64,000 nucleotides of DNA from Salminus brasiliensis (Eukaryota > Chordata > Actinopteri > Characiformes > Bryconidae), in assembly GCF_030463535.1 (NCBI RefSeq), contig NC_132894.1:13227433-13291432 (forward strand), given 5' to 3'. Made by a program: the position numbers and the translations under genes. This document shows positions 1-28,500 of the stretch, piece by piece. Position 1 is the first letter of the stretch, and each line of letters opens with the position of its first letter. The notes beneath the pieces are model-generated. The model was given only the letters and a program-made list of their open reading frames with translations, was not told where the DNA came from and did no database searches.

Positions 1-943
1 ACAACCATTCTATCTCATTTCTATATTCTTCCATGCTTCTTTTGTTATGTCCTTTCTCATCAGGCTTGTAACTCTCTTCTTCCTTTTTGATTTCTTTTCT
101 TTTTGTGTTTTGGGATTTTTTTTCCTGATATTTTCAAGGCGGTTCTGGTTTAGATAACATTTTCCCAAATGTGTTCAAATGTCAGACCATGGATGAGTCA
201 GGTCTGTTAGCAATATTTTTTCACACACATGTTTATTACAGTATGACTCCTGTAATATAAAGACAATGATCTTGTTCAGTATCAAATACTTGCAGGCCTA
301 TTTGTGCTACACCACAAAGTAGCATTAATAAGTTTAGTTACAGTCTAAACTTGGTATTAGTATACCAGCTTTAAAGTAAAAAGAAAACAACAATGCACTG
401 AAATTGACATTTTTAGTCTCTTTTTAAAAGTCTAAGATGTTCTCACGGAAAATACTAGCGTGTCAACTGGCTTAAACTTTTTTCCGCATAAAAAACGTTC
501 TCTTCACTCCCATGGCACAGTTTGACTGACACAAAGGCAAACAACAGGCCCTGTGTATTGTGCATACACTTTCCTTCTGATTCGCCATTTGTACACTTAT
601 TTTTATGCGGCCAAAAGTGTTTTTCTTCAGTCATTTTATTTTTAAGATAGTCATTTCTTTTGCTCTACTCTGCCTCTGTAGAAAAATTAGTGCTTCTGCC
701 ATGTGTACTTTTTCTTCAGACCATTAAAATCCTAAAGACTAATCGTTCAATTGTTTCTGTCCGAATATTGCAAGGAAACAAGTGTTTGTAGTATTGGTTG
801 TGATGTTTAAGCCTGTAACCCTTGCTTCCATTTATGTGCGGGTTTTGCAGTGGAATCTAAACCTGTTAGTGAATGCTGAGGACAATTGTTTCATCAGTGT
901 CAGTGAAAAGAATGTATTATTTGAGTTTAAACCACAGTGAATG

Positions 944-1243
944 AAAAAGACTGAGTCCCGCTGTCTTGCTCAGGCTGCACTGCAGGGTCTATTCACAGGC
1001 GCCATCCCACTACTGATCGGCACGGGGGCTTTGACCTGCTCCGTTTCCGACCTGGGCCGGTTCACCCCTCCTTAGACGACCTGGTGGTCCCGAGCTCCCT
1101 CAGAAACACCATATCGACACCGACCTTAGTGCGGACACCCGATCAACATAGTCCACTACAGCCCAGAACCCCTGAACTCAAACGGTCCGCCAGCCTCAGC
1201 CTCCCGATAACTTGGATTACAGGCGCGCGCCACTTCGCCCGGC
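944..1243 (-). ncRNA. rn7sl: 7SL RNA (SRP RNA) gene, array copy 1
   Basis: This is a full-length 300-nt signal recognition particle RNA, the scaffold that binds SRP9/14, SRP19, SRP54 and SRP68/72 to target secretory proteins to the ER. On the minus strand it starts GCCGGGCGAAGTGGCGCGCG, like vertebrate 7SL and Alu 5' ends. A 7SL-type A box (GTGGCGCGCGCCTG) and B box (GTTTGAGTTCAG) follow. The S domain has a perfect GAG-GGAG-CTC hairpin, which is the SRP19-binding helix 6 tetraloop. It also has helix 8, CAGGTCGGAAACGGAGCAGG, with a GAAA loop and the SRP54-binding symmetric loop. The 3' end is a five-T Pol III terminator at 944-948. The whole S domain is present, so this is 7SL and not an Alu-like SINE. 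The helix 5/6 strand reads CACTAAGGTCGG, where human has CACTAAGTTCGG. Confidence 0.95.
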
Positions 1244-1364
1244 GGCAGTCGAGTTGATTTGGGGAGGTTTTAGCCTGCAGATACAAACTCACGCTGCCCA
1301 CTGGTGGGAAAACGAGGAGTTACACAGACCTAAAGAGTCTCTTACAGACAGCGCCCTCTGGTCT
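1244..1364 (-). promoter_or_regulatory. Conserved 5' flank of the 7SL genes (shown for copy 1)
   Basis: Vertebrate 7SL genes need upstream elements as well as the internal boxes. Reading away from the start at 1243, there is an A-rich CTAAAA segment at about -24 to -31, a possible TATA-like position. A GCGTGAGTTT motif lies at about -42 to -55, roughly where human 7SL has its ATF/CRE site, though it is not a consensus CRE. At 1351-1364 (-108 to -121) is AGACCAGAGGGCGCTG, a good but imperfect CTCF-type core. The same arrangement precedes the other copies (for example 2953-2966 for copy 2). Function is inferred from position only. Confidence 0.45.
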
Positions 1365-2545
1365 TTTATCTTTTAGTTTACATTGCTTGTTACATTGAGT
1401 TCTATGCTTCATCTTCACCAGTTATTCAGTTTTCAGGTAAGATGCCACGTTGTTTTAGGCGAACATTAAACCTGTTCACTGTAGTCTACTGACAGGGCGG
1501 TTAAAACCTCTGTAGACTAGTAGTACATTTCATCATTTTAGACTGAATGAATAATAGTCATGAACTCAACTGCTTTGAAATGTGTAAATCAGGAGTTACA
1601 AGAATAAACTTCAGCATGTTTAGAGCTCTGTCAAAAATACAACCATTCTATCTCATTTCTATATTCTTCCATGCTTCTTTTGTTATGTCCTTTCTCATCA
1701 GGCTTGTAACTCTCTTCTTCCTTTTTGATTTCTTTTCTTTTTGTGTTTTGGGATTTTTTTTTTCCTGATATTTTCAAGGCGGTTCTGGTTTAGATAACAT
1801 TTTCCCAACTGTGTTCAAATGTCAGACCATGCATGAGTCAGGTCTATTAGCAATATTTTTTCATTCACATGTTTATTACAGTATGACTCCTGTAATATAA
1901 AGACAATGATCTTGTTCAGTATCAATACTTGCAGGCCTATTTGTGCTACACCACAAAGTAGCATTAATAAGTTTAGTTACAGTCTAAACTTGGTATTAGT
2001 ATACCAGCTTTAAAGTAAAAAGAAAACAACAATGCACTGAAATTGACATTTTTTGTCTCTTTTTAAAAGTCTAAGATGTTCTCACGGAAAATACTAGCGT
2101 GTCAACTGGCTTAAACCTTTTTCTGCATAAAAAACGTTCTCTTTACTCCCATGGCACAGTTTGACTGACACAAAGGCAAACAACAGGCCCTGTGTATTGT
2201 GCATACACTTTCCTTCTGATTCGCCATTTCAGTCATTTTGTTTTTAAGATAGTCATTTCTTTTGCTCTACTCTGCCTCTGTAGAAAAAGTAGTGCTTCTG
2301 CCATGTGTACTTTTTCTTCAGACCATTAAAATCCTAAAGACTAATCGTTAAATTGTTTCTGTCCGAATATTGTAAGGAAACAAGTGTTTGTAGTATTGGT
2401 TGTGATGTTTAAGCCTGTAACCCTTGCTTCCATTTATGTGCGGGTTTTGCAGTGGAATCTAAACCTGTTAGTGAATGCTGAGGACAATTGTTTCATCAGT
2501 GTCAGTGAAAAGAATGTATTATTTGAGTTTAAACCACAGTGAATG

Positions 2546-2845
2546 AAAAAGACTGAGTCCCGCTGTCTTGCTCAGGCTGCACTGCAGGGTCTATTCACAG
2601 GCGCCATCCCACTACTGATCGGCACGGGGGCTTTGACCTGCTCCGTTTCCGACCTGGGCCGGTTCACCCCTCCTTAGACGACCTGGTGGTCCCGAGCTCC
2701 CTCAGAAACACCATATCGATACCGACCTTAACGCGGACACCCGATCAACATAGTCCACGACAGCCCAGAACCCCTGAACTCAAACGGTCCGCCAGCCTCA
2801 GCCTCCCAGTAACTTGGATTACAGGCGCGCGCCACTTCGCCCAGC
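2546..2845 (-). ncRNA. rn7sl: 7SL RNA gene, array copy 2 (GCT-type 5' end)
   Basis: This is a 300-nt 7SL copy with all domains and a TTTTT terminator at 2546-2550. The 5' end reads GCTGGGCG instead of GCCGGGCG. The helix 6 strand reads GTTAAGGTCGGTAT. The GGAG and GAAA tetraloops are intact. Copies 6, 9 and 11 share this haplotype, including the flanking GATTTAGGG on the plus strand. Confidence 0.94.
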
Positions 2846-3148
2846 GGCAGTCGAGTTGATTTAGGGAGGTTTTAGCCTGCAGATACAAACTCACGCTGCC
2901 CACTGGTGGGAAAACGAGGAGTTACACAGACCTAAAGAGTCTCTTACAGACAGCGCCCTCTGGTCTTTTATCTTTTAGTTTACATTGCTTGTTACATTGA
3001 GTTCTGTGCTTCATCTTCACCAGTTATTAAGTTTTCAGGTAAGATGCCACGTTGTTTTAGGCGAACATGAAACCTGTTCACTGTAGTCTACTGACAGGGC
3101 GGTTAAAACCTCTGTAGACTAGTAGTACATTTCATCATTTTAGACTGA

Positions 3149-4070
3149 ATGAATAACAGTCATGAACTCAACTGCTTTGAAATGTGTAAATCAGGAGTTA
3201 CAAGAATAAACTTCAGCATGTTTAGTGCTCTGTCAAAAATACAACCATTCTATCTCATTTCTATATTCTTCCATGCTTCTTTTGTTATGTCCTTTCTCAT
3301 CTGGCTTGTAACTCTCTTCTTCCTTTTTGATTTCTTTTCTTTTTGTGTTTTGGGATTTTTTTCCCTGATATTTTCAAGGCTGTTCTGGTTTAGATAACAT
3401 TTTCCCAACTGTGTTCAAATGTCAGACCATGGATGAGTCAGGTCTGTTAGCAATATTTTTTCATTCACCTGTTTATTACAGTATGACTCCTGTAATATAA
3501 AGACAATGATCTTGTTCAGTATCAATACTTGCAGGCCTATTTGTGCTACACCACAAAGTAGCATTAATAAGTTTAGTTACAGTCTAAACTTGGTATTAGT
3601 ATACCAGCTTTAAAGTAAAAAGAAAACAACAATGCACTGAAATTGACATTTTTAGTCTCTTTTTAAAAGTCTAAGATGTTCTCACGGAAAATACTAGCGT
3701 GTCAACTGGCTTAAACTTTTTTCCGCATAAAAAACGTTCTCTTTACTCCCATGGCACAGTTTGACTGACACAAAGGCAAACAACAAGCCCTGTGTATTGT
3801 GCATACACTTTCCTTCTGATTCGCCATTTGTACATTTATTTTTATGCGGCCAAAAGTGTTTTTCTTCAGTCATTTTGTTTTTAAGATAGTCATTTCTTTT
3901 GCTCTACTCTACCTCTGTAGAAAAAGTAGTGCTTCTGCCATGTGTACTTTTTCTTCAGACCATTAAAATCCTAAAGACTAATCGTTAAATTGTTTCTGTC
4001 CGAATATTGCAAGGAAACAAGTGTTTATAGTATTGGTTGTGATGTTTAAGTAGTACATTTCATAATTTTA
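3149..4070. repeat. Truncated array unit that has lost its 7SL gene
   Basis: The spacer half of this unit is normal down to GATGTTTAAG at 4041-4050. The sequence then jumps to TAGTACATTTCAT, which normally lies about 710 bp further on. The missing stretch contains the whole 7SL gene and its 5' flank. The LINE insertion begins about 20 bp after the junction. The unit is therefore dead as a 7SL locus. Confidence 0.9.
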
Positions 4071-6010
4071 GAATCAGAATCAGAATCTCTTTATTTCACC
4101 AAGTATGTTACTCATACAAGGAATTTGTCTTGGTGAGAGCAACACGTATGACAAGTAACAAAAAACACAGAACACAGTCTTAAACTAAAGGAAAATGACA
4201 CTAAACAATAAATAGGGTAGGAGATAAATTAAAAAAGTAAAAAGTACTAAAGGTAATAAAGAGCTGAAAATATATTTACAGAAAAGAAAAGAACATCTGT
4301 ACAGGTGTGCAAATAGTCATAGTGCAAAATAGGCAGAGTGCAAAATAGCTGTTCAGTCCGGTTTGGTACAGTTCAGTTGTAAGTTTAGAGGTTTACAGTG
4401 GGAGGTGACCACTGTGATTGAGGAGCGCTACAGCTCTGGGGAAGAAGCTGTTAGCATTACGTGTTGTGCTGGTTTTGATGGACCGCAGTCTTCTACCCGA
4501 GGGGAGTGTCTGGAAGAGGAGGTGTCCAGGATGTGAGGGGTCAGATGTAATCTTGCCAGCCCGCTTCCTCACCCTGCTGGTGTAGATCTGCTGAAGTGAT
4601 GGCAGGTTACATCCGATGATCCTCTCTGCTGTCCTGATGATGCGCTGGAGTTTGGTTCTTTCTTGTGAGGTGGAGGAACCAAACCAGATAGTTATGGAGG
4701 CTGTGATAATGGACTCGATGATCGCTGTGTAGAACTGGATCATCAGGGTCTGTGGCAGGTTGAATTTCTTGAGCTGTCTCAAGAAGAACATTCTTTGTTG
4801 AGCTTTCTTGATGATGGAGATGGTGTTTTTCTCCCATTTCAAGTCTCTGGAAATGGTGGTGCCCAGGAACTTGAGTGACTCCACCATTGATACTGCAGTG
4901 TTGTTGATGTGGAGGGGGGGAAGGGTGGGTGGATTGCGTCGAAAGTCCACCACCATCTCTACAGTCTTTTCTGTGTTTAGCAGCAGGTGGTTGTTGCTGC
5001 ACCAGGACACCAGCTGCTCAATTTCCTTTCTGTAAGCAGACTCATCACCGTTGGCTATGAGGCCCACCAGAGTGGAGTCATCTGCAAATTTCAGGATCTT
5101 TACAGCTGGATCTTTGGAGACACAGTCATTAGTGTAGAGGCTGAAGAGAAGGGGTGAAAGAACACAACCCTGAGGGACTCCAGTACTGAGTGTCCGGAGG
5201 TCTGAAGTGTGCTTCCCCAGCCGCACCTGCTGTCTCCTGTCTGTCAGAAAATCCACGATCCACCGACACATGGAGTCTGGCACTGACAGCTGGGAGAGTT
5301 TGGCCTGAAGAAGCTGCGGCACAACAGTGTTAAAGGCCGAGCTAAAGTCCACAAACAAAACCCTAGCATAGTTTCCATGGCTGTCGAGATGTTGCAGGAT
5401 AAAGTGCAGGGTCAGGTTGACCACATCATCGATAGACCTGTTTGCTCGGTACGCAAACTGCAAGGGGTCCAGCAGGGGATCTGTGATGGACTTCAGGTGG
5501 GCTAGGATCAGGCGTTCAAAGACCTTCATGACTACAGAGGTCAGGGCGACAGGCCTGTAATCATTCAGTCTGGTGATGGTGGATTTCTTGGGAACTGGAA
5601 TGATGGTGGAGGTTTTGAAGCAGGCTGGAACAGAGCAGAGTTCCAGTGATCTGTTAAAAATGTCTGTAAACACTGGAGCTAGTTGGTCACAGCAGTGTTT
5701 TAGGGTGGATGGAGAGACTGAGTCGGGCCCGGGGGCTTTCCTCACCTTCTGTCTGCTGAAGAGCCTGTGAACATCCTGCAGGTTGATGCAGAGATGAGCA
5801 GGAGGCAGAGGTGAGAGGGCCAGTGTGGGGGTGGAGGTGGAGGGGGGTGATGGGTGGTAGACGGTCTGATTGTCTTTTGTGAGTTCAAATCTGCAGTAGA
5901 ACTCATTCAGGTCATTGGTGAGGTGTCGGTCGTTCAGAAGGTGGGGGGTCTTTCTCACCTTGTGACCAGTGAGAAGCTGAAGGCCTTTCCAGGCTGAAGA
6001 TGGGTCGTAT
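4071..6010 (-). mobile_element. 5'-truncated non-LTR retrotransposon (CR1/L2/Rex1-like LINE)
   Basis: A LINE fragment of about 1.94 kb lies on the minus strand inside a 7SL array unit. The 3' tail, at the left end, is a short direct repeat based on GATTCT. The 5' end stops within the coding frame near 6010, so the endonuclease part is absent, as expected from incomplete target-primed reverse transcription. The insertion lies between TTTTAGA and AATGAATAA of the unit, with a few bases of the target lost and no clear target-site duplication. The unit next to it also lacks its 7SL gene. I place it in the CR1/L2/Rex1 group from its reverse-transcriptase motifs; the exact family is uncertain. Confidence 0.9.
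4393..6009 (-). pseudogene. LINE reverse transcriptase, C-terminal part of ORF2
   Basis: The open frame is uninterrupted from the truncated 5' end (about 6009) to the stop at 4393. The first Met-like codon near 5958 is really GTG, and the frame continues upstream as SSAWKGLQLLTGHK, so no native start is present. Motifs in order are RKAPGPDSV, the palm entry NDYRPVALTSVVMKVFERL, FVDFSSAFNT, GVPQGCVLSPLLF, the catalytic FADD (usual form YADD or FADD) and KFLGTTIS. After these comes the C-terminal region typical of fish CR1/L2-like elements. The AP-endonuclease domain is missing, so it cannot be autonomous. The frame has no internal stop, which suggests a fairly recent insertion. Confidence 0.88.
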
Positions 6011-6990
6011 AATGAATAATAGTCATGAACTCAACTGCTTTGAAATGTGTAAATCAGGAGTTACAAGAATAAACTTCAGCATGTTTAGTGCTCTGTCAAA
6101 AATACAACCATTCTATCTCATTTCTATATTCTTCCATGCTCATTTTGTTATGTCCTTTCTCATCTGGCTTGTAACTCTCTTCTTCCTTTTTGATTTGTTT
6201 TGTGTTTTTTTTTTCCTGATATTTTCAAGGCGGTTCTGGTTTAGATAACATTTTCCCAAATGTGTTCAAATGTCAGACCATGGATGAGTCAGGTCTGTTA
6301 GCAATATTTTTTCACACACATGTTTATTACAGTATGACTCCTGTAATATAAAGACAATGATCTTGTTCAGTATCAATACTTGCAGGCCTATTTGTGCTAC
6401 ACCACAAAGTAGCATTAATAAGTTTAGTTACAGTCTAAACTTGGTATTAGTATACCAGCTTTAAAGTAAAAAGAAAACAACAATGCACTGAAATTGACAT
6501 TTTTAGTCTCTTTTTAAAAGTCTAAGATGTTCTCACGGAAAATACTAGCGTGTCAACTGGCTTAAACCTTTTTCTGCATAAAAAACGTTCTCTTTACTCC
6601 CATGGCACAGTTTGACTGACACAAAGGCAAACAACAGGCCCTGTGTATTGTGCATACACTTTTCTTCTGATTCGCCATTTCAGTCATTTTGTTTTTAAGA
6701 TAGTCATTTCTTTTGCTCTACTCTGTAGAGAAAGTAGTGCTTCTGCCATGTGTACTTTTTCTTCAGACCATTAAAATCCTAAAGACTAATCGTTAAATTA
6801 TTTCTGTCCGAATATTGCAAGGAAACAAGTGTTTGTAGTATTGGTTGTGATGTTTAAGCCTGTAACCCTTGCTTCCATTTATGTGCGGGTTTTGCAGTGG
6901 AATCTAAACCTGTTAGTGAATGCTGAGGACAATTGTTTCATCAGTGTCAGTGAAAAGAATGTATTATTTGAGTTTAAACCACAGTGAATG

Positions 6991-7290
6991 AAAAAGACTG
7001 AGTCCCGCTGTCTTGCTCAGGCTGCACTGCAGGGTCTATTCACAGGCGCCATCCCACTACTGATCGGCACGGGGGCTTTGACCTGCTCCGTTTCCGACCT
7101 GGGCCGGTTCACCCCTCCTTAGACGACCTGGTGGACCCGAGCTCCCTCAGAAACACCATATCGACACCGACCTTAGCGCGGACACCCGATCAACATAGTC
7201 CACGACAGCCCAGAATCCCTGAACTCAAACGGTCCGCCAGTCTCAGCCTCCCAGTAACTTGGATTACAGGCGCGCGCCACTTCGCCCGGC
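6991..7290 (-). ncRNA. rn7sl: 7SL RNA gene, array copy 3
   Basis: This is a full 300-nt copy in the first unit to the right of the LINE. It has a GCCGGGCG 5' end, a GGAG helix 6 loop, a GAAA helix 8 loop and a TTTTT terminator at 6991-6995. The helix 6 strand is GCTAAGGTCGGTGT. A small difference from the other copies lies upstream of the B box (plus strand CAGAATCCCTG). Confidence 0.94.
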
Positions 7291-8626
7291 GGCAGTCGAG
7301 TTGATTTGGGGAGGTTTTAGCCTGCAGATACAAACTCACGCTGCCCACTGGTGGGCAAACGAGGAGTTACACAGACCTAAAGAGTCTCTTACAGACAGCG
7401 CCCTCTGGTCTTTTATCTTTTAGTTTACATTGCTTGTTACATTGAGTTCTGTGCTTCATCTTCACCAGTTATTCAGTTTTCAGGTAAGATGCCACGTTGT
7501 TTTAGGCGAACATGAAACCTGTTCACTGTAGTCTACTGACAGGGCGGTTAAAACCTCTGTAGACTAGTAGTACATTTCATCATTTTAGACTGGATGAATA
7601 ATAGTCATGAACTCAACTGCTTTGAACTGTGTAAATCAGGAGTTACAAGAATAAACTTCAGCATGTTTAGTGCTCTGTCAAAAATAAAACCATTCTATCT
7701 CATTTCTATATTCTTCCATGCTCATTTTGTTATGTCATTTCTCTTCTGGCTTGTAACTCTCTTCTTCCTTTTTGATTTCTTTTCTTTTTGTGTTTTGGGA
7801 TTTTTTTCCTGATATTTTCAAGGCTGTTCTGGTTTAGATAACATTTTCCCAACTGTGTTCAAATGTCAGACCATGGATGAGTCAGGTCTGTTAGCAATAT
7901 TTTTTCACACACATGTTTATTACAGTATGACTCCTGTAATATAAAGACAATGATCTTGTTCAGTATCAATACTTGCAGGCCTATTTGTGCTACACCACAA
8001 AGTAGCATTAATAAGTTTAGTTACAGTCTAAACTTGGTATTAGTATACCAGCTTTAAAGTAAAAAGAAAACAACAATGCACTGAAATTGACATTTTTAGT
8101 CTCTTTTTAAAAGTCTAAGATGTTCTCACGGAAAATACTAGCGTGTCAACTGGCTTAAACTTTTTTCCGCATAAAAAACGTTCTCTTCACTCCCATGGCA
8201 CAGTTTGACTGACACAAAGGCAAACAACAGGCCCTGTGTATTGTGCATACACTTTCCTTCTGATTCGCCATTTGTACATTTATTTTTATGCGGCCAAAAG
8301 TGTTTTTCTTCAGTCATTTTATTTTTAAGATAGTCATTTATTTTGCTCTATTCTGCCTCTGTAGAAAAATTAGTGCTTCTGCCATGTGTACTTTTTCTTC
8401 AGACCATTAAAATCCTAAAGACTAATCGTTCAATTGTTTCTGTCCGAATATTGCAAGGAAACAAGTGTTTGTAGTATTGGTTGTGATGTTTAAGCCTGTA
8501 ACCCTTGCTTCCATTTATGTGCGGGTTTTGCAGTGGAATCTAAACCTGTTAGTGAATGCTGAGGACAATTGTTTCATCAGTGTCAGTGAAAAGAATGTAT
8601 TATTTGAGTTTAAACCACAGTGAATG

Positions 8627-8926
8627 AAAAAGACTGAGTCCCGCTGTCTTGCTCAGGCTGCACTGCAGGGTCTATTCACAGGCGCCATCCCACTACTGAT
8701 CGGCACGGGGGCTTTGACCTGCTCCGTTTCCGACCTGGGCCGGTTCACCCCTCCTTAGACGACCTGGTGGACCCGAGCACCCTCAGGAGCACCATATCAA
8801 TACCGAACTTAGCGCGGACACCCGATCAACATAGTCCACGACAACCCAGAACCCCTGAACTGAAACGGTCCGCCAGCCTCAGCCTCCCAGTAACTTGGAT
8901 TACAGGCGCGCGCCACTTCGCCCGGC
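8627..8926 (-). ncRNA. rn7sl: 7SL RNA gene, array copy 4, probably a pseudogene
   Basis: The copy is 300 nt and has a TTTTT terminator, but it has changes no other copy has. The helix 6 apical hairpin reads GAG-GGTG-CTC where the others have GAG-GGAG-CTC, which alters the SRP19-binding tetraloop. The internal B-box core reads GTTTCAGTTC in place of GTTTGAGTTC. Flanking helix positions also differ (GGTGCTCCTGAGGG against GGTGTTTCTGAGGG). Together these suggest a decaying or specialised copy. The 5' end and helix 8 are normal. Confidence 0.88.
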
Positions 8927-10226
8927 GGCAGTCGAGCTGATTTGGGGAGGTTTTAGCCTGCAGATACAAACTCACGCTGCCCACTGGTGGGCAAACGAGG
9001 AGTTACACAGACCTAAAGAGTCTCTTACAGACAGCGCCCTCTGGTCTTTTATCTTTTAGTTTACATTGCTTGTTACATTGAGTTCTGTGCTTCATTTTCA
9101 CCAGTTATTCAGTTTTCAGGTAAGATGCCACGTTGTTTTAGGCGAACATGAAACCTGTTCACTGTAGTCTACTGACAGGGCGGTTAAAACCTCTGTAGAC
9201 TAGTAGTACATTTCATCATTTTAGACTGAATGAATAATAGTCATGAACTCAACTGCTTTGAAATGTGTAAATCAGGAGTTACAAGAATAAACTTCAGCAT
9301 GTTTAGTGCTCTGTCAAAAATACAACCATTCTATCTTATTTCTATATTCTTCCATGCTCATTTTGTTATGTCCTTTCTCATCTGGCTTGTAACTCTCTTC
9401 TTCCTTTTTGATTTCTTTTCTTTTTGTGTTTTGGGATTTTTTTTCCTGATATTTTCAAGGCTGTTCTGGTTTAGATAACATTTTCCCAACTGTGTTCAAA
9501 TGTCTGACCATGGATGAGTCAGGTCTGTTAGCAATATTTTTTCACACACATGTTTATTACAGTATGACTCCTGTAATATAAAGACAATGATCTTGTTCAG
9601 TATCAATACTTGCAGGCCTATTTGTGCTACACCACAAAGTAGCATTAATAAGTTTAGTTACAGTCTAAACTTGGTATTAGTATACCAGCTTTAAAGTAAA
9701 AAGAAAACAACAATGCACTGAAATTGACATTTTTTGTCTCTTTTTAAAAGTCTAAGATGTTCTCACGGAAAATACTAGCGTGTCAACTGGCTTAAACCTT
9801 TTTCTGCATAAAAAACGTTCTCTTTACTCCCATGGCACAGTTTGACTGACACAAAGGCAAACAACAGGCCCTGTGTATTGTGCATACACTTTTCTTCTGA
9901 TTCGCCATTTCAGTCATTTTGTTTTTAAGATAGTCATTTCTTTTGCTCTACTCTGCCTCTGTAGAAAAAGTAGTGCTTCTGCCATGTGTACTTTTTCTAC
10001 AGACCATTAAAATCCTAAAGACTAATCGTTAAATTGTTTCTGTCCGAATATTGTAAGGAAACAAGTGTTTGTAGTATTGGTTATGATGTTTAAGCCTGTA
10101 ACCCTTGCTTCCATTTATGTGCGGGTTTTGCAGTGGAATCTAAACCTGTTAGTGAATGCTGAGGACAATTGTTTCATCAGTGTCAGTGAAAAGAATGTAT
10201 TATTTGAGTTTAAACCACAGTGAATG

Positions 10227-10526
10227 AAAAAGACTGAGTCCCGCTGTCTTGCTCAGGCTGCACTGCAGGGTCTATTCACAGGCGCCATCCCACTACTGAT
10301 CGGCACGGGGGCTTTGACCTGCTCCGTTTCCGACCTGGGCCGGTTCACCCCTCCTTAGACGACCTGGTGTACCCGAGCTCCCTCAGAAACACCATATCCA
10401 TACCGAACTTAGCGCGGACACCCGATCAACATAGTCCACTACAGCCCAGAACCCCTGAACTCAAACGGTCCGCCAGCCTCAGCCTCCCGATAACTTGGAT
10501 TACAGGCGCGCGCCACTTCGCCCGGC
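10227..10526 (-). ncRNA. rn7sl: 7SL RNA gene, array copy 5
   Basis: This is a 300-nt copy with a GCCGGGCG 5' end, both diagnostic tetraloops and a terminator at 10227-10231. Its helix 6 strand GCTAAGTTCGGTATGG keeps the CTAAGTTCGG core found in human 7SL. Copies 7, 10, 14 and 15 share this class, and it looks the most canonical of the array. Confidence 0.95.
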
Positions 10527-11828: not shown

Positions 11829-12128
11829 AAAAAGACTGAGTCCCGCTGTCTTGCTCAGGCTGCACTGCAGGGTCTATTCACAGGCGCCATCCCACTACTG
11901 ATCGGCACGGGGGCTTTGACCTGCTCCGTTTCCGACCTGGGCCGGTTCACCCCTCCTTAGACGACCTGGTGGTCCCGAGCTCCCTCAGAAACACCATATC
12001 GATACCGACCTTAACGCGGACACCCGATCAACATAGTCCACGACAGCCCAGAACCCCTGAACTCAAACGGTCCGCCAGCCTCAGCCTCCCAGTAACTTGG
12101 ATTACAGGCGCGCGCCACTTCGCCCAGC
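11829..12128 (-). ncRNA. rn7sl: 7SL RNA gene, array copy 6 (GCT-type)
   Basis: This is a 300-nt copy with a GCTGGGCG 5' end and a GTTAAGGTCGGTAT helix 6 strand. It is the first gene of the 4803-bp higher-order block and corresponds to copy 9. The tetraloops and the terminator (11829-11833) are intact. Confidence 0.94.
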
Positions 12129-13427: not shown

Positions 13428-13727
13428 AAAAAGACTGAGTCCCGCTGTCTTGCTCAGGCTGCACTGCAGGGTCTATTCACAGGCGCCATCCCACTACTGA
13501 TCGGCACGGGGGCTTTGACCTGCTCCGTTTCCGACCTGGGCCGGTTCACCCCTCCTTAGACGACCTGGTGTACCCGAGCTCCCTCAGAAACACCATATCC
13601 ATACCGAACTTAGCGCGGACACCCGATCAACATAGTCCACTACAGCCCAGAACCCCTGAACTCAAACGGTCCGCCAGCCTCAGCCTCCGGATAACTTGGA
13701 TTACAGGCGCGCGCCACTTCGCCCGGC
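13428..13727 (-). ncRNA. rn7sl: 7SL RNA gene, array copy 7
   Basis: This is a 300-nt copy of the CTAAGTTCGG class. The Alu-domain stem reads TTATCCGGAGG where most copies have TTATCGGGAGG or TTACTGGGAGG; this form is shared with copies 14 and 15. The terminator is at 13428-13432. It corresponds to copy 10, 4803 bp to the right. Confidence 0.94.
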
Positions 13728-15029: not shown

Positions 15030-15329
15030 AAAAAGACTGAGTCCCGCTGTCTTGCTCAGGCTGCACTGCAGGGTCTATTCACAGGCGCCATCCCACTACT
15101 GATCGGCACGGGGGCTTTGACCTGCTCCGTTTCCGACCTGGGCCGGTTCACCCCTCCTTAGACGACCTGGTGGTCCCGAGCTCCCTCAGAAACACCATAT
15201 CGATACCGACCTTAACGCGGACACCCGATCAACATAGTCCACGACAGCCCAGAACCCCTGAACTCAAACGGTCCGCCAGCCTCAGCCTCCCGATAACTTG
15301 GATTACAGGCGCGCGCCACTTCGCCCGGC
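15030..15329 (-). ncRNA. rn7sl: 7SL RNA gene, array copy 8
   Basis: This is a 300-nt copy that combines the GTTAAGGTCGGTAT helix 6 strand of the GCT class with a GCCGGGCG 5' end and a TTATCGGGAGG stem. It looks like a conversion or recombination mosaic of two classes. The tetraloops and the terminator (15030-15034) are intact. Confidence 0.94.
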
Positions 15330-16631: not shown

Positions 16632-16931
16632 AAAAAGACTGAGTCCCGCTGTCTTGCTCAGGCTGCACTGCAGGGTCTATTCACAGGCGCCATCCCACTA
16701 CTGATCGGCACGGGGGCTTTGACCTGCTCCGTTTCCGACCTGGGCCGGTTCACCCCTCCTTAGACGACCTGGTGGTCCCGAGCTCCCTCAGAAACACCAT
16801 ATCGATACCGACCTTAACGCGGACACCCGATCAACATAGTCCACGACAGCCCAGAACCCCTGAACTCAAACGGTCCGCCAGCCTCAGCCTCCCAGTAACT
16901 TGGATTACAGGCGCGCGCCACTTCGCCCAGC
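16632..16931 (-). ncRNA. rn7sl: 7SL RNA gene, array copy 9 (GCT-type)
   Basis: This is a 300-nt copy with a GCTGGGCG 5' end. It lies exactly 4803 bp from copy 6 and carries the same haplotype. The tetraloops and the terminator (16632-16636) are intact. Confidence 0.94.
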
Positions 16932-18230
16932 GGCAGTCGAGTTGATTTAGGGAGGTTTTAGCCTGCAGATACAAACTCACGCTGCCCACTGGTGGGCAAA
17001 CGAGGAGTTACACAGACCTAAAGAGTCTCTTACAGACAGCGCCCTCTGGTCTTTTATCTTTTAGTTTACATTGCTTGTTACATTGAGTTCTGTGCTTCAT
17101 CTTCACCAGTTATTCAGTTTTCAGGTAAGATGCCACGTTGTTTTAGGCGAACATGAAACCTGTTCACTGTAGTCTACTGACAGGGCGGTTAAAACCTCTG
17201 TAGACTAGTAGTACATTTCATCATTTTAGACTGAATGAATAACAGTCATGAACTCAACTGCTTTGAAATGTGTAAATCAGGAGTTACAAGAATAAACTTC
17301 AGCATGTTTAGTGCTCTGTCAAAAATACAACCATTCTATCTCATTTCTGTATTCTTCCATGCTTCTTTTGTTATGTCCTTTCTCATCTGGCTTGTAACTC
17401 TCTTCTTCCTTTTTGATCTCTTTTCTTTTTGTGTTTTGGCATTTTTTTCCTGATATTTTCAAGGCTGTTCTGGTATAGATAACATTTTCCCAACTGTGTT
17501 CAAATGTCAGACCATGGATGAGTCAGGTCTGTTAGCAATATTTTTTCACACACATGTTTATTACAGTATGACTCCTGTAATATAAAGACAATGATCTTGT
17601 TCAGTATCAATACTTGCAGGCCTATTTGTGCTACACCACAAAGTAGCATTAATAAGTTTAGTTACAGTCTAAACTTGGTATTAGTATACCAGCTTTAAAG
17701 TAAAAAGAAAACAACAATGCACTGAAATTGACATTTTTAGTCTCTTTTTAAAAGTCTAAGATGTTCTCACGGAAAATACTAGCGTGTCAACTGGCTTAAA
17801 CCTTTTTCTGCATAAAAAACGTTCTCTTTACTCCCATGGCACAGTTTGACTGACACAAAGGCAAACAACAGGCCCTGTGTATTGTGCATACACTTTCCTT
17901 CTGATTCGCCATTTCAGTCATTTTGTTTTTAAGATAGTCATTTCTTTTGCTCTACTCTGCCTCTGTAGAGAAAGTAGTGCTTCTGCCATGTGTACTTTTT
18001 CTTCAGACCATTAAAATCCTAAAGACTAATCATTAAATTGTTTCTGTCCGAATATTGCAAGGAAACAAGTGTTTGTAGTATTGGTTGTGATGTTTAAGCC
18101 TGTAACCCTTGCTTCCATTTATGTGCGGGTTTTGCAGTGGAATCTAAACCTGTTAGTGAATGCTGAGGACAATTGTTTCATCAGTGTCAGTGAAAAGAAT
18201 GTATTATTTGAGTTTAAACCACAGTGAATG

Positions 18231-18530
18231 AAAAAGACTGAGTCCCGCTGTCTTGCTCAGGCTGCACTGCAGGGTCTATTCACAGGCGCCATCCCACTAC
18301 TGATCGGCACGGGGGCTTTGACCTGCTCCGTTTCCGACCTGGGCCGGTTCACCCCTCCTTAGACGACCTGGTGTACCCGAGCTCCCTCAGAAACACCATA
18401 TCCATACCGAACTTAGCGCGGACACCCGATCAACTTAGTCCACTACAGCCCAGAACCCCTGAACTCAAACGGTCCGCCAGCCTCAGCCTCCCGATAACTT
18501 GGATTACAGGCGCGCGCCACTTCGCCCGGC
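18231..18530 (-). ncRNA. rn7sl: 7SL RNA gene, array copy 10
   Basis: This is a 300-nt copy of the CTAAGTTCGG class, 4803 bp from copy 7. It differs from copy 7 at two places I noticed: the TTATCGGG stem in place of TTATCCGG, and plus-strand CAACTTAG in place of CAACATAG. The terminator is at 18231-18235. Confidence 0.94.
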
Positions 18531-19832
18531 GGCAGTCGAGTTGATTTGGGGAGGTTTTAGCCTGCAGATACAAACTCACGCTGCCCACTGGTGGGCAAAC
18601 GAGGAGTTACACAGACCTAAAGAGTCTCTTACAGACAGCGCCCTCTGGTCTTTTATCTTTTAGTTTACATTGCTTGTTACATTGAGTTCTGTGCTTCATC
18701 TTCACCAGTTATTCAGTTTTCAGGTAAGATGCCACGTTGTTTTAGGCGAACATGAAACCTGTTCACTGTAGTCTACTGACAGGGCGGTTAAAACCTCTGT
18801 AGACTAGTAGTACATTTCATCATTTTAGACTGAATGAATAATAGTCATGAACTCAACTGCTTTGAAATGTGTAAATCAGGAGTTACAAGAATAAACTTCA
18901 GCATGTTTAGTGCTCTGTCAAAAATACAACCATTCTATCTCATTTCTATATTCTTCCATGCTTCTTTTGTTATGTCCTTTCTCATCAGGCTTGTAACTCT
19001 CTTCTTCCTTTTTGATTTCTTTTCTTTTTGTGTTTTGGGATTTTTTTTTTCCTGATATTTTCAAGGCGGTTCTGGTTTAGATAACATTTTCCCAAATGTG
19101 TTCAAATGTCAGACCATGCATGAGTCAGGTCTATTAGCAATATTTTTTCATTCACATGTTTATTACAGTATGACTCCTGTAATATAAAGACAATGATCTT
19201 GTTCAGTATCAATACTTGCAGGCCTATTTGTGCTACACCACAAAGTAGCATTAATAAGATTAGTTACAGTCTAAACTTGGTATTAGTATACCAGCTTTAA
19301 AGTAAAAAGAAAACAACAATGCACTGAAATGGACATTTTTAGTCTCTTTTTAAAAGTCTAAGATGTTCTCACGGAAAATACTAGCGTGTCAACTGGCTTA
19401 AACTTTTTTCTGCATAAAAAACGTTCTCTTTACTCCCATGGCACAGTTTGACTGACACAAAGGCAAACAACAGGCCCTGTGTATTGTGCATACACTTTCC
19501 TTCTGATTCGCCATTTCAGTCATTTTGTTTTTAAGATAGTCATTTCTTTTGCTCTACTCTGCCTCTGTAGAAAAAGTAGTGCTTCTGCCATGTGTACTTT
19601 TTCTTCAGACCATTAAAATCCTAAAGACTAATCGTTAAATTGTTTCTGTCCGAATATTGTAAGGAAACAAGTGTTTGTAGTATTGGTTGTGATGTTTAAG
19701 CCTGTAACCCTTGCTTCCATTTATGTGCGGGTTTTGCAGTGGAATCTAAACCTGTTAGTGAATGCTGAGGACAATTGTTTCATCAGTGTCAGTGAAAAGA
19801 ATGTATTATTTGAGTTTAAACCACAGTGAATG

Positions 19833-20132
19833 AAAAAGACTGAGTCCCGCTGTCTTGCTCAGGCTGCACTGCAGGGTCTATTCACAGGCGCCATCCCACT
19901 ACTGATCGGCACGGGGGCTTTGACCTGCTCCGTTTCCGACCTGGGCCGGTTCACCCCTCCTTAGACGACCTGGTGGTCCCGAGCTCCCTCAGAAACACCA
20001 TATCGATACCGACCTTAACGCGGACACCCGATCAACATAGTCCACGACAGCCCAGAACCCCTGAACTCAAACGGTCCGCCAGCCTCAGCCTCCCAGTAAC
20101 TTGGATTACAGGCGCGCGCCACTTCGCCCAGC
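19833..20132 (-). ncRNA. rn7sl: 7SL RNA gene, array copy 11 (GCT-type)
   Basis: This is a 300-nt copy with a GCTGGGCG 5' end and the GTTAAGGTCGGTAT strand, 4803 bp from copy 8. Unlike copy 8 it carries the full GCT-class haplotype in its 5' half and flank. The terminator is at 19833-19837. Confidence 0.94.
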
Positions 20133-21428
20133 GGCAGTCGAGTTGATTTAGGGAGGTTTTAGCCTGCAGATACAAACTCACGCTGCCCACTGGTGGGAAA
20201 ACGAGGAGTTACACAGACCTAAAGAGTCTCTTACAGACAGCGCCCTCTGGTCTTTTATCTTTTAGTTTACATTGCTTGTTACAATGAGTTCTGTGCTTCA
20301 TCTTCACCAGTTATTCAGTTTTCAGGTAAGATGCCACGTTGTTTTAGGCGAACATGAAACCTGTTCACTGTAGTCTACTGACAGGGCGGTTAAAACCTCT
20401 GTAGACTAGTAGTACATTTCATCATTTTAGACTGAATGAATAACAGTCATGAACTCAACTGCTTTGAAATGTGTAAATCAGGAGTTACAAGAATAAACTT
20501 CAGCATGTTTAGTGCTCTGTCAAAAATACAACCATTCTATCTCATTTCTATATTCTTCCATGCTTCTTTTGTTATGTCCTTTCTCATCAGGCTTGTAACT
20601 CTCTTCTTCCTTTTTGATTTCTTTTCTTTTTGTGTTTTGGCATTTTTTTTTTCCTGATATTTTCAAGGCGGTTCTGGTTTAGATAACATTTTCCCAAATG
20701 TGTTCAAATGTCAGACCATGGATGAGTCAGGTCTGTTAGCAATATTTTTTCATTCACATGTTTATTACAGTATGACTCCTGTAATATAAAGACAATGATC
20801 TTGTTCAGTATCAATACTTGCAGGCCTATTTGTGCTACACCACAAAGTAGCATTAATAAGTTTAGTTACAGTCTAAACTTGGTATTAGTATACCAGCTTT
20901 AAAGTAAAAAGAAAACAACAATGCACTGAAATGGACATTTTTAGTCTCTTTTTAAAAGTCTAAGATGTTCTCACGGAAAATACTAGCGTGTCAACTGGCT
21001 TAAACTTTTTTCTGCATAAAAAACGTTCTCTTTACTCCCATGGCACAGTTTGACTGACACAAAGGCAAACAACAGGCCCTGTGTATTGTGCATACACTTT
21101 CCTTCTGATTCGCCATTTCAGTCATTTTGTTTTTAAGATAGTCATTTCTTTTGCTCTACTCTGTAGAGAAAGTAGTGCTTCTGCCATGTGTACTTTTTCT
21201 TCAGACCATTAAAATCCTAAAGACTAATCGTTAAATTATTTCTGTCCGAATATTGCAAGGAAACAAGTGTTTGTAGTATTGGTTGTGATGTTTAAGCCTG
21301 TAACCCTTGCTTCCATTTATGTGCGGGTTTTGCAGTGGAATCTAAACCTGTTAGTGAATGCTGAGGACAATTGTTTCATCAGTGTCAGTGAAAAGAATGT
21401 ATTATTTGAGTTTAAACCACAGTGAATG

Positions 21429-21728
21429 AAAAAGACTGAGTCCCGCTGTCTTGCTCAGGCTGCACTGCAGTGTCTATTCACAGGCGCCATCCCACTACTG
21501 ATCGGCACGGGGGCTTTGACCTGCTCCGTTTCCGACCTGGGCCGGTTCACCCCTCCTTAGACGACCTGGTGTACCCGAGCTCCCTCAGAAACACCATATC
21601 GACACCGACTTCAGCGCGGACACCCGATCAACATAGTCCACTACAGCCCAGAACCCCTGAACTCAAACGGTCCGCCAGCCTCAGCCTCCCAGTAACTTGG
21701 ATTACAGGCGCGCGCCACTTCGCCCGGC
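21429..21728 (-). ncRNA. rn7sl: 7SL RNA gene, array copy 12
   Basis: This is a 300-nt copy with helix 6 strand GCTGAAGTCGGTGTCG and a 3' segment reading GACACTGCAGTGC, where most copies have GACCCTGCAGTGC. Copy 13 shares both features, so the two form a recent pair. The tetraloops and the terminator are intact. A 90-codon antisense reading frame across this copy is a by-product of these substitutions. Confidence 0.94.
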
Positions 21729-23023
21729 GGCAGTCGAGTTGATTTGGGGAGGTTTTAGCCTGCAGATACAAACTCACGCTGCCCACTGGTGGGAAAACGA
21801 GGAGTTACACAGACCTAAAGAGTCTCTTACAGACAGCGCCCTCTGGTCTTTTATCTTTTAGTTTACATTGCTTGTTACATTGAGTTCTGTGCTTCATTTT
21901 CACCAGTTATTCAGTTTTCAGGTAAGATGCCACGTTGTTTTAGGCGAACATGAAACCTGTTCACTGTAGTCTACTGACAGGGCGGTTAAAACCTCTGTAG
22001 ACTAGTAGTACATTTCATCATTTTAGACTGAATGAATAACAGTCATGAACTCAACTGCTTTGAAATGTGTAAATCAGGAGTTACAAGAATAAACTTCAGC
22101 ATGTTTAGTGCTCTGTCAAAAATACAACCATTCTATCTCATTTCTATATTCTTCCATGCTTCTTTTGTTATGTCCTTTCTCATCAGGCTTGTAACTCTCT
22201 TCTTCCTTTTTGATTTCTTTTCTTTTTGTGTTTTGGCATTTTTTTTTCCTGATATTTTCAAGGCGGTTCTGGTTTAGATAACATTTTCCCAAATGTGTTC
22301 AAATGTCTGACCATGGATGAGTCAGGTCTGTTAGCAATATTTTTTCACACACATGTTTATTACAGTATGACTCCTGTAATATAAAGACAATGATCTTGTT
22401 CAGTATCAATACTTGCAGGCCTATTTGTGCTACACCACAAAGTAGCATTAATAAGTTTAGTTACAGTCTAAACTTGGTATTAGTATACCAGCTTTAAAGT
22501 AAAAAGAAAACAACAATGCACTGAAATGGACATTTTTAGTCTCTTTTTAAAAGTCTAAGATGTTCTCACGGAAAATACTAGCGTGTCAACTGGCTTAAAC
22601 TTTTTTCTGCATAAAAAACGTTCTCTTTACTCCCATGGCACAGTTTGACTGACACAAAGGCAAACAACAGGCCCTGTGTATTGTGCATACACTTTCCTTC
22701 TGATTCGCCATTTCAGTCATTTTGTTTTTAAGATAGTCATTTCTTTTGCTCTACTCTGTAGAGAAAGTAGTGCTTCTGCCATGTGTACTTTTTCTTCAGA
22801 CCATTAAAATCCTAAAGACTAATCATTAAATTGTTTCTGTCCGAATATTGTAAGGAAACAAGTGTTTGTAGTATTGGTTGTGATGTTTAAGCCTGTAACC
22901 CTTGCTTCCATTTATGTGCGGGTTTTGCAGTGGAATCTAAACCTGTTAGTGAATGCTGAGGACAATTGTTTCATCAGTGTCAGTGAAAAGAATGTATTAT
23001 TTGAGTTTAAACCACAGTGAATG

Positions 23024-23323
23024 AAAAAGACTGAGTCCCGCTGTCTTGCTCAGGCTGCACTGCAGTGTCTATTCACAGGCGCCATCCCACTACTGATCGG
23101 CACGGGGGCTTTGACCTGCTCCGTTTCCGACCTGGGCCGGTTCACCCCTCCTTAGACGACCTGGTGTACCCGAGCTCCCTCAGAAACACCATATCGACAC
23201 CGACTTCAGCGCGGACACCCGATCAACATAGTCCACTACAGCCCAGAACCCCTGAACTCAAACGGTCCGCCAGCCTCAGCCTCCCAGTAACTTGGATTAC
23301 AGGCGCGCGCCACTTCGCCCGGC
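23024..23323 (-). ncRNA. rn7sl: 7SL RNA gene, array copy 13
   Basis: This is a 300-nt copy of the same subclass as copy 12, with GCTGAAGTCGG and GACACTGCAG. I see no difference between the two within the gene. The terminator is at 23024-23028. Confidence 0.94.
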
Positions 23324-24624
23324 GGCAGTCGAGTTGATTTGGGGAGGTTTTAGCCTGCAGATACAAACTCACGCTGCCCACTGGTGGGCAAACGAGGAGT
23401 TACACAGACCTAAAGAGTCTCTTACAGACAGCGCCCTCTGGTCTTTTATCTTTTAGTTTACATTGCTTGTTACATTGAGTTCTGTGCTTCATTTTCACCA
23501 GTTATTCAGTTTTCAGGTAAGATGCCACGTTGTTTTAGGCGAACATGAAACCTGTTCACTGTAGTCTACTGACAGGGCGGTTAAAACCTCTGTAGACTAG
23601 TAGTACATTTCATCATTTTAGACTGAATGAATAACAGTCATGAACTCAACTGCTTTGAAATGTGTAAATCAGGAGTTACAAGAATAAACTTCAGCATGTT
23701 TAGTGCTCTGTCAAAAATACAACCATTCTATCTCATTTCTGTATTCTTCCATGCTTCTTTTGTTATGTCCTTTCTCATCTGGCTTGTAACTCTCTTCTTC
23801 CTTTTTGATTTCTTTTCTTTTTGTGTTTTGGGATTTTTTTTCCTGATATTTTCAAGGCTGTTCTGGTTTAGATAACATTTTCCCAAATGTGTTCAAATGT
23901 CAGACCATGGATGAGTCAGGTCTGTTAGCAATAGTTTTTCACACACATGTTTATTACAGTATGACTCCTGTAATATAAAGACAATGATCTTGTTCAGTAT
24001 CAAATACTTGCAGGCCTATTTGTGCTACACCACAAAGTAGCATTAATAAGTTTAGTTACAGTCTAAACTTGGTATTAGTATACCAGCTTTAAAGTAAAAA
24101 GAAAACAACAATGCACTGAAATTGACATTTTTAGTCTCTTTTTAAAAGTCTAAGATGTTCTCACGGAAAATACTAGCGTGTCAACTGGCTTAAACCTTTT
24201 TCTGCATAAAAAACGTTCTCTTTACTCCCATGGCACAGTTTGACTGACACAAAGGCAAACAACAGGCCCTGTGTATTGTGCATACACTTTCCTTCTGATT
24301 CGCCATTTCAGTCATTTTGTTTTTAAGATAGTCATTTCTTTTGCTCTACTCTGCCTCTGTAGAAAAAGTAGTGCTTCTGCCATGTGTACTTTTTCTTCAG
24401 ACCATTAAAATCCTAAAGACTAATCGTTAAATTGTTTCTGTCCGAATATTGTAAGGAAACAAGTGTTTGTAGTATTGGTTGTGATGTTTAAGCCTGTAAC
24501 CCTTGCTTCCATTTATGTGCGGGTTTTGCAGTGGAATCTAAACCTGTTAGTGAATGCTGAGGACAATTGTTTCATCAGTGTCAGTGAAAAGAATGTATTA
24601 TTTGAGTTTAAACCACAGTGAATG

Positions 24625-24924
24625 AAAAAGACTGAGTCCCGCTGTCTTGCTCAGGCTGCACTGCAGGGTCTATTCACAGGCGCCATCCCACTACTGATCG
24701 GCACGGGGGCTTTGACCTGCTCCGTTTTCGACCTGGGCCGGTTCACCCCTCCTTAGACGACCTGGTGTACCCGAGCTCCCTCAGAAACACCATATCCATA
24801 CCGAACTTAGCGCGGACACCCGATCAACATAGTCCACTACAGCCCAGAACCCCTGAACTCAAACGGTCCGCCAGCCTCAGCCTCCGGATAACTTGGATTA
24901 CAGGCGCGCGCCACTTCGCCCGGC
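24625..24924 (-). ncRNA. rn7sl: 7SL RNA gene, array copy 14, altered helix 8 loop
   Basis: This is a 300-nt copy of the CTAAGTTCGG class, but helix 8 reads GGTCGAAAACGG where all other copies read GGTCGGAAACGG. The GAAA (GNRA) tetraloop of the SRP54/SRP-receptor domain becomes AAAA. The Alu stem is the TTATCCGG type. Everything else, including the terminator at 24625-24629, is intact. Confidence 0.92.
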
Positions 24925-26224
24925 GGCAGTCGAGTTGATTTGGGGAGGTTTTAGCCTGCAGATACAAACTCACGCTGCCCACTGGTGGGAAAACGAGGAG
25001 TTACACAGACCTAAAGAGTCTCTTACAGACAGCGCCCTCTGGTCTTTTATCTTTTAGTTTACATTGCTTGTTACATTGAGTTCTGTGCTTCATCTTCACC
25101 AGTTATTCAGTTTTCAGGTAAGATGCCACGTTGTTTTAGGCGAACATGAAACCTGTTCAGTGTAGTCTACTGACAGGGCGGTTAAAACCTCTGTAGACTA
25201 GTAGTACATTTCATCATTTTAGACTGAATGAATAACAGTCATGAACTCAACTGCTTTGAAATGTGTAAATCAGGAGTTACAAGAATAAACTTCAGCATGT
25301 TTAGTGCTCTGTCAAAAATACAACCATTCTATCTCATTTCTATATTCTTCCATGCTTCTTTTGTTATGTCCTTTCTCATCTGGCTTGTAACTCTCTTCTT
25401 CCTTTTTGATTTCTTTTCTTTTTGTGTTTTGGCATTTTTTTTCCTGATATTTTCAAGGCTGTTCTGGTTTAGATAACATTTTCCCAACTGTGTTCAAATG
25501 TCAGACCATGGATGAGTCAGGTCTGTTAGCAATATTTTTTCATTCACCTGTTTATTACAGTATGACTCCTGTAATATAAAGACAATGATCTTGTTCAGTA
25601 TCAATACTTGCAGGCCTATTTGTGCTACACCACAAAGTAGCATTAATAAGTTTAGTTACAGTCTAAACTTGGTATTAGTATACCAGCTTTAAAGTAAAAA
25701 GAAAACAACAATGCACTGAAATTGACATTTTTAGTCTCTTTTTAAAAGTCTAAGATGTTCTCACGGAAAATACTAGCGTGTCAACTGGCTTAAACCTTTT
25801 TCTGCATAAAAAACGTTCTCTTTACTCCCATGGCACAGTTTGACTCACACAAAGGCAAACAACAGGCCCTGTGTATTGTGCATACACTTTCCTTCTGATT
25901 CGCCATTTCAGTCATTTTGTTTTTAAGATAGTCATTTCTTTTGCTCTACTCTGCCTCTGTAGAAAAAGTAGTGCTTCTGCCATGTGTACTTTTTCTTCAG
26001 ACCATTAAAATCCTAAAGACTAATCATTAAATTGTTTCTGTCCGAATATTGCAAGGAAACAAGTGTTTGTAGTATTGGTTGTGATGTTTAAGCCTGTAAC
26101 CCTTGCTTCCATTTATGTGCGGGTTTTGCAGTGGAATCTAAACCTGTTAGTGAATGCTGAGGACAATTGTTTCATCAGTGTCAGTGAAAAGAATGTATTA
26201 TTTGAGTTTAAACCACAGTGAATG

Positions 26225-26524
26225 AAAAAGACTGAGTCCCGCTGTCTTGCTCAGGCTGCACTGCAGGGTCTATTCACAGGCGCCATCCCACTACTGATCG
26301 GCACGGGGGCTTTGACCTGCTCCGTTTCCGACCTGGGCCGGTTCACCCCTCCTTAGACGACCTGGTGTACCCGAGCTCCCTCAGAAACACCATATCCATA
26401 CCGAACTTAGCGCGGACACCCGATCAACATAGTCCACTACAGCCCAGAACCCCTGAACTCAAACGGTCCGCCAGCCTCAGCCTCCGGATAACTTGGATTA
26501 CAGGCGCGCGCCACTTCGCCCGGC
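26225..26524 (-). ncRNA. rn7sl: 7SL RNA gene, array copy 15 (last copy)
   Basis: This is a 300-nt copy of the CTAAGTTCGG class with a TTATCCGG stem. Both tetraloops are normal and the terminator is at 26225-26229. It is the copy nearest c6orf120, about 300 bp from the end of the array, and it keeps its complete 5' flank. Confidence 0.95.
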
Positions 26525-26837
26525 GGCAGTCGAGTTGATTTGGGGAGGTTTTAGCCTGCAGATACAAACTCACGCTGCCCACTGGTGGGAAAACGAGGAG
26601 TTACACAGACCTAAAGAGTCTCTTACAGACAGCGCCCTCTGGTCTTTTATCTTTTAGTTTCCATTGCTTGTTACATTGAGTTCTGTGCTTCATCTTCACC
26701 AGTTATTCAGTTTTCAGGTAAGATGCCACGTTGTTTTAGGCGAACATGAAACCTGTTCACTGTAGTCTACTGACAGGGCGGGTAAAACCTCTGTAGACTA
26801 GTAGTACATTTCATCATTTTAGACTGAATGAATAATA

Positions 26838-26890
26838 ATAGTTTAACTTTGCTTGTTATATTGAGTTCTGTGCTTCATCTTCACCAGTTA
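26838..26890. repeat. Displaced fragment of the array unit at the array edge
   Basis: After the array breaks off near 26836, about 50 bp (GTTTAACTTTGCTTGTTATA through CTTCACCAGTTA) match, with a few changes, the stretch at about 26659-26705 of the last unit. It is a rearranged scrap of the unit at the boundary. Confidence 0.75.
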
Positions 26891-27150: not shown

Positions 27151-27165
27151 CCGGCAGGGGGCGCT
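27151..27165 (+). promoter_or_regulatory. Candidate CTCF site between the 7SL array and c6orf120
   Basis: CCGGCAGGGGGCGCT matches the CTCF core consensus except for one G at the usual A position. It lies about 315 bp beyond the array edge and just upstream of the first exon of c6orf120, where an insulator would make sense. Binding is inferred from sequence alone. Confidence 0.45.

Positions 27166-27879: not shown

Positions 27880-28500
<621 letters not shown>

Follow-up and report, generated by a model that had tools for sequence, protein, structure and literature searches.

Clusters of genes for 7SL RNA, the RNA of the signal recognition particle (SRP), are known from a fish and from a cnidarian. 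In the croaker, 24 7SL genes were reported, eight of which (7SL-9 to 7SL-16) are adjacent on chromosome 12, the most active gene, 7SL-23, being located on another chromosome (PMC11893794). For Hydractinia, tandem arrays of non-coding RNA genes were described, including SRP RNA in the draft H. echinata assembly (PMC11067881). The subject of the present analysis is a tandem array of 7SL genes in the fish Salminus brasiliensis (genome 1.066 Gb, 103 contigs), which enters a 64,000-nt stretch of contig NC_132894.1, hereafter C17, at positions 13,227,433-13,291,432; this stretch is referred to as the window, and its positions are given without prefix. The array, termed W, is very probably a working RNA polymerase III (Pol III) 7SL tandem array and one of two inverted arrays, W and E, which hold all intact genes found (21 + 17).

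W and the croaker case have in common a fish genome with many 7SL genes, part of them adjacent, but in the accessible sections of that report (PMC11893794) neither a regular head-to-tail unit nor an inverted partner array is described, both of which are present here. The Hydractinia arrays resemble W in that SRP RNA genes are evenly spaced in tandem with similar spacers, whereas they belong to a cnidarian and are described, in the accessible sections of the source (PMC11067881), without a diverged inverted array pair or an analysis of SRP RNA copies. The tandem SRP RNA array as such is therefore already known and not a new kind. An earlier note on this stretch, made from the sequence alone, had regarded such an array as an unusual mode of supplying the RNA; the array proved real, while the mode is less unprecedented than supposed, given the published croaker and cnidarian SRP RNA clusters. 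A large regular fish 7SL array was not found in a literature search that mostly did not reach subscription journals. New, as far as searched, are the two inverted, diverged arrays holding the intact copies found, and a gene 5' part that is more variable than the spacer.

Gene content and layout of array W

The whole window was searched with cmscan against Rfam, in which the gathering threshold for RF00017 (Metazoa_SRP) is 70 bits. Fifteen matches to this family were obtained between 945 and 26524, each on the minus strand and covering model positions 1-299 of 299, at 252.9-265.1 bits; Metazoa_SRP was the only Rfam family above threshold in the window. At least 15 full-length 7SL genes on one strand with a period of 1.6 kb had been claimed beforehand, and the Infernal search with the metazoan SRP model, proposed as a check on that claim, bears it out with all 15 matches full length, on one strand and far above the cut-off. 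The gene copies, identified as Rfam matches on the minus strand, are located at 945..1243 (265.1 bits), 2547..2845, 6992..7290, 8628..8926, 10228..10526, 11830..12128, 13429..13727, 15031..15329, 16633..16931, 18232..18530, 19834..20132, 21430..21728, 23025..23323, 24626..24924 and 26226..26524, the last being the rightmost. Compared with their consensus, the 15 window copies differ at 4-8 sites each. The copy at 8628..8926 is the most divergent (8 differences) and carries the B-box variant C83T, that at 6992..7290 carries the B-box variant G75A, that at 24626..24924 shows G197A in the helix 8 loop region, and that at 15031..15329 appears by eye to be a recombinant of two haplotypes.

One unit (16633-18231, containing the copy at 16633..16931) was used as reference for BLAST. 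Units of ~1,600 bp with 97.2-100% identity were found head-to-tail from base 1 to 26835 (minus strand), with a break at ~4051-6010, and a 52-bp unit fragment of 94.2% identity (26839..26890, minus strand) marks the right array edge. No N is present in the window, whose 2,568-base overlap with the genome sequence is identical. The left edge of the window falls mid-unit, and the adjoining DNA contains 6 more intact copies and 1 decayed copy, the latter scoring 98.8 bits at the left edge of W. The whole of W thus comprises 21 intact genes (C17:13,215,317-13,253,956), in agreement with the expectation that the array leaves the window and that the true number is higher. Eighteen of the 20 intervals between these genes measure 1,595-1,638 bp, and the 2 longer ones each contain a retrotransposon. 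Full-length covariance matches above the gathering score were obtained for 15 of 15 copies in the window, for 21 in W and for 17 in E. W is a regular, one-strand, head-to-tail array of an RNA gene.

Array E and genome-wide census

Array E consists of 17 intact genes and a fragment at C17:12,899,686-12,934,347, in the orientation opposite to that of W, the nearest intact genes of the two arrays being 281 kb apart. Its copies score 267.6-285.8 bits with RF00017, versus 252.9-265.1 bits in W, and are irregularly spaced, the intervals ranging between 1,036 and 5,898 bp and a 1,349/2,233-bp pair (dimer) being repeated.

A 29-base pattern from the 5' domain, searched genome-wide with up to 3 mismatches, gave 39 matches, of which 17 fall in E, 22 in W (decayed copy counted) and 0 outside W and E; the reversed pattern, used as control, gave 0 matches. 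With a 23-base pattern from the S domain and up to 2 mismatches, 45 matches were obtained. The arrays account for 40 of these, E contributing 18 and W 22, counts that take in the E fragment and the W decayed copy. The 5 S-domain matches off the arrays, two at C17:29.02 Mb and one each at C17:31.84 Mb, on C8 and on C19, are diverged or partial: the pair at 29.02 Mb has no recognisable first ~22 nt, yet reaches 209.9 and 187.4 bits, and the other three copies are shorter or more diverged than this pair. In the middle of the W-E gap (12,960,001-13,110,000, 150 kb) no match was found by either pattern search, and a 20-base pattern gave 0 matches in viral_contigs. As a side observation, diverged 7SL copies were located near tRNA matches, of which there are 2 in L037 (C17:29020001-29030000) and 2 in L038.

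The census rests on the two pattern searches together with a covariance search that scored 26 of 12,637 candidates and that would be no census alone; the covariance-search family also gave a below-cut-off signal in 5 of 14 control genomes, and the count covers copies within the mismatch limits of the patterns, beyond which old retrocopies, for example, would fall. Within these limits, and as judged from the assembled sequence, the intact 7SL genes found are those of W and E, and their 38 genes most likely represent the 7SL supply of the genome.

Promoter, terminator and RNA landmarks

Motif counts in W gave the A box, the T5 terminator and TAAAA at -29 in 21/21 copies each, the exact B box in 18/21, and the upstream motifs at -64 and -119 in 21/21. 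For the last copy, the upstream block is located at 26525..26643 (minus strand) and consists of TAAAA at -29, CCACCAG..GGCAG at -64 and ACCAGAGGGCGCT at -119, all three being present in each of the 21 W copies. Words counted at fixed positions within the RNA were TGTAAT (23-28) in 21/21, GGAG (146) in 19/21, GAACCGG (181) in 21/21, CGGAAAC (195) in 19/21 and AGCAG (204) in 21/21; GGAG alone occurs four times in the gene. These landmarks are taken here to be SRP protein-binding sites. The internal Pol III boxes, S-domain landmarks and TTTTT terminator named in the earlier note were accordingly seen at the counted positions in W. The motifs at -64 and -119 (26575-26643, and in every W unit) may resemble CTCF sites, as may a motif at 27150-27170 in the upstream region of c6orf120.

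Upstream regions in E are of several types, with an octamer-like TTTGCAT in 9/17 copies (0/21 in W) and W-type motifs in 3/17. The upstream region of W can be aligned over ~120-140 bp with three E copies and over 0-47 bp with the other E copies, and downstream the W-E alignment extends up to position 563, so that the shared stretch reaches beyond the promoter.

Mammalian 7SL genes are described as requiring a TATA-like element at -31/-24 and as having a cAMP response element (CRE) at -51/-44 (PMC7279448). W shares with these genes the internal A and B boxes as well as a TATA-like element, its TAAAA box being found at the matching place. The mammalian CRE is absent, and the W upstream block has the CCACCAG..GGCAG and ACCAGAGGRCGCT motifs (PMC7279448).

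Concerted evolution and divergence of the arrays

In a tree of the gene copies, a single branch with support of 100/99 separates the 12 distinct W sequences from the 15 distinct E sequences. When the pair at 29.02 Mb was placed outside, W formed one clade and E surrounded W, with 16 of 26 inner branches weak. Fixed differences between W and E, two of which affect the Alu domain, are located at sites 9, 10, 59, 98 and 241, and the W-type diagnostic bases include A9, A10 and G241; the divergence is also seen in the mostly different upstream regions.

Within W, an 8.2-kb retrotransposon-bearing block occurs twice, 19,074 bp apart, with 99.0% identity, the two retrotransposon copies in it being 99.95% identical. 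The duplicated block, tagged by a long interspersed nuclear element (LINE), is a footprint of unequal exchange or of block duplication. In a four-gamete test on the gene haplotypes, 18 of 210 informative site pairs failed (Rm, the minimum number of recombination events, 3), and the haplotypes evidently recombine, with at least three exchanges if recurrent change is excluded. The suggestion that such an array would be open to concerted evolution is confirmed by the W/E branch split, the duplicated LINE-tagged block and the haplotype recombination. Polymorphisms common to W and E with the same two bases numbered 7, against 1.85 expected (P = 0.001), and weakly suggest exchange between the arrays or recurrent change at permissive sites.

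Evidence for and against a working array

According to the proposed mechanism, each W unit would possess its own promoter, comprising the upstream block with the TATA-like box and the internal A and B boxes, and its own terminator, and would give one 7SL RNA. Every unit would be transcribed separately by Pol III, and many copies would provide dose. Within an array, the copies would be kept alike by unequal crossing-over and gene conversion, and this homogenisation would let W and E diverge into two 7SL versions. The copies are presumably transcribed, and their RNA presumably enters the SRP.

With each variant allele counted once, 5 of 26 W alleles break a consensus pair, against 10.7 expected at random for the same transition/transversion mix (P = 0.005); when the gene part was matched as well, 5 were observed against 11.05 expected (P = 0.006). 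The keeping of pairs in W supports a putative function, now or until recently.

Several observations weigh against a working array W. A9 and A10, present in 21/21 W copies and also in the decayed copy at the W edge, break two helix 3 pairs that are kept in E. In fold predictions, which treat single strands without proteins, W is less stable, with -13.9 kcal/mol for the first 48 nt versus -18.8 in E, and a whole-RNA mean of -123.8 versus -131.6 kcal/mol. The B box is altered in 3 W copies, CTAAG at 115 is absent in 8/21 W copies, the mammalian CRE (TGACGT near -50) was found in 0/21 W and 0/17 E copies within 150 bp upstream, and TAAAA at -29 is present in only 7/17 E copies. The deficit of pair-breaking alleles is not significant in E (12 of 38 against 14.1 expected, P = 0.27; 11 against 14.2 when scored against the consensus partner, P = 0.16).

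The distribution of variation in W belongs to the same side. It was counted in 18 complete units, two insertion-bearing intervals and the last gene being left out of the 21 genes, and the p-values are optimistic, related copies not being independent. Gene positions 1-158 contain 22 variable sites, versus 53 in 1,341 spacer columns (p = 3e-6), a density ~3.5 times that of the spacer and the reverse of what constraint predicts for a working gene; the chance of a 158-column window so rich in variable sites was p = 0.0006. Positions 159-299 have 2 variable sites in 141, a density not significantly lower than that of the spacer (p = 0.16), and the whole gene has 24 in 299 versus 53 in 1,341 (p = 0.006), the reverse of the ribosomal DNA (rDNA) pattern of a constant gene and a variable spacer. 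Variation in E is less skewed, 25 of 38 variable sites being located in gene 1-158.

The high variability at the 5' end of the W gene may be due to transcription-linked mutation, to conversion tracts or to a relaxation of selection on single copies. Exchange from E was considered and mostly rejected, no W copy having the E base at 9, 10, 59, 98 or 241. One E copy (12927115) shows the base of the W majority at 114, 156 and 258 and a W base at 157; its base at 241, however, is that of E, and this speaks against a single simple conversion tract. CpG decay was tentatively rejected as a cause, few variable sites being transitions at CpG when inspected by eye; CpG counts in the reference unit are 14 for the spacer, 13 for gene 1-158 and 8 for gene 159-299.

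Alternative explanations

As a special case of the working-array explanation, the two arrays could provide two stage- or tissue-specific 7SL RNAs, by analogy with zebrafish, in which the 5S and 45S rRNA genes form maternal and somatic sets with stage-specific expression, the 5S genes comprising 2,330 of the maternal type on one chromosome and 12 of the somatic type on another (PMC5513064). Both cases show a Pol III RNA family split into separate genomic sets of diverged sequence, but the zebrafish RNA is a different one, and stage use, demonstrated there, is a hypothesis for W and E (PMC5513064). The separate arrays, the fixed differences, the mostly different upstream regions and TTTGCAT in 9/17 E but 0/21 W copies would fit such specialisation, as would the zebrafish precedent of maternal and somatic 5S types on different chromosomes, whereas the arrays are separated by a mere 281 kb of the same chromosome, the shared W/E polymorphisms hint at exchange, and W-type upstream motifs occur in 3/17 E copies. 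Stage- or tissue-specific use is possible, though doubtful. The fuller proposal is put forward with some reserve as rather doubtful, namely that W and E are two homogenised sets giving structurally different SRP RNAs, that of W having a changed helix 3 in the Alu domain, from mostly different upstream regions, in a stage- or tissue-specific manner resembling a maternal/somatic switch.

An unlikely alternative is that only E is active, the 7SL genes of W being chance contents of a satellite-like array that is dead or dying. In its favour, E is nearer to the Rfam consensus by bit score, and W shows two broken helix 3 pairs, a less stable fold and an excess of gene over spacer variation; on the other hand, it is the W variants that avoid breaking pairs, under both forms of matching, and those of E that do not do so significantly. 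Moreover, none of the 21 W copies lacks the upstream elements, the A box or the terminator, whereas TAAAA at -29 is present in a minority of E copies (7/17).

That the copies were falsely stacked by the assembler is very improbable. Arrays are hard to assemble, but here the copies differ in sequence and the units in length, two different retrotransposons are inserted, and no N was present in the fetched stretches. In mammals, short interspersed nuclear elements (SINEs) have been derived from 7SL, and in spite of this precedent a cluster of 7SL-derived SINEs or retropseudogenes is scarcely credible, being refuted, as far as tested, by the layout of full-length 299-nt genes that stand head-to-tail and have the upstream block and the T5 terminator in common, and by the absence of dispersed copies, 39/39 5'-domain matches lying inside W and E.

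Retrotransposons, array edges and neighbouring genes

The array break in the window contains a non-LTR retrotransposon (~4072..6010, minus strand; unit BLAST and Pfam) with an RVT_1 domain, which is duplicated with its flanks at C17:13212395-13214335; ALKBH8_N was also matched by Pfam in the same frame as RVT_1. The unit that begins at 2547 can be followed as far as unit coordinate ~1466, where it joins ~575, which by eye corresponds to a deletion of ~0.7 kb with loss of one 7SL gene, so that the window part of W once held at least 16 genes. A second, different non-LTR retrotransposon is located in W at C17:13219151-13222528. An open frame of 1,035 codons (C17:13219427-13222531) is preserved in it, with RVT_1 in the tested part, so that the element may be young. 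Both retrotransposons have the orientation of the 7SL genes and are inserted within a few bases of unit point ~598. The array also has its right edge nearby (unit ~610), and the 0.7-kb deletion one of its ends (~575); perhaps a fragile or preferred site is situated ~0.3 kb upstream of the gene.

To the right of W, the c6orf120 coding exon (27880..28497, plus strand; Pfam PF17065) is next to the last 7SL gene, in divergent orientation. To the left, keratin-like open frames are present at C17:13173870-13205658, one of which was tested and matches the intermediate-filament domain, the others being assigned by eye, and a HAP1_N frame is located at C17:13122806; these frames could serve as synteny markers. 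The C6orf120, intermediate-filament and HAP1 domains nearby are consistent with a vertebrate. The window further contains an acidic open frame of 624 codons (34999-36873) that has no Pfam match at E 0.001, and a 42-bp tandem repeat of 46 copies with 88% matches (61689-63598).

Significance

The inverted distribution of gene and spacer variation in W is puzzling under the usual view of concerted evolution. Were the two arrays indeed to give different SRP RNAs, hypervariability in the 5' part of W would amount to diversity within one SRP class. The diagnostic W and E bases allow RNA data to show which array is used when, so that specialised SRP RNAs are directly testable. If the census holds, an essential RNA is supplied in this fish from two arrays on one chromosome, and its dose, homogenisation and loss would become open to study in the manner of rDNA.

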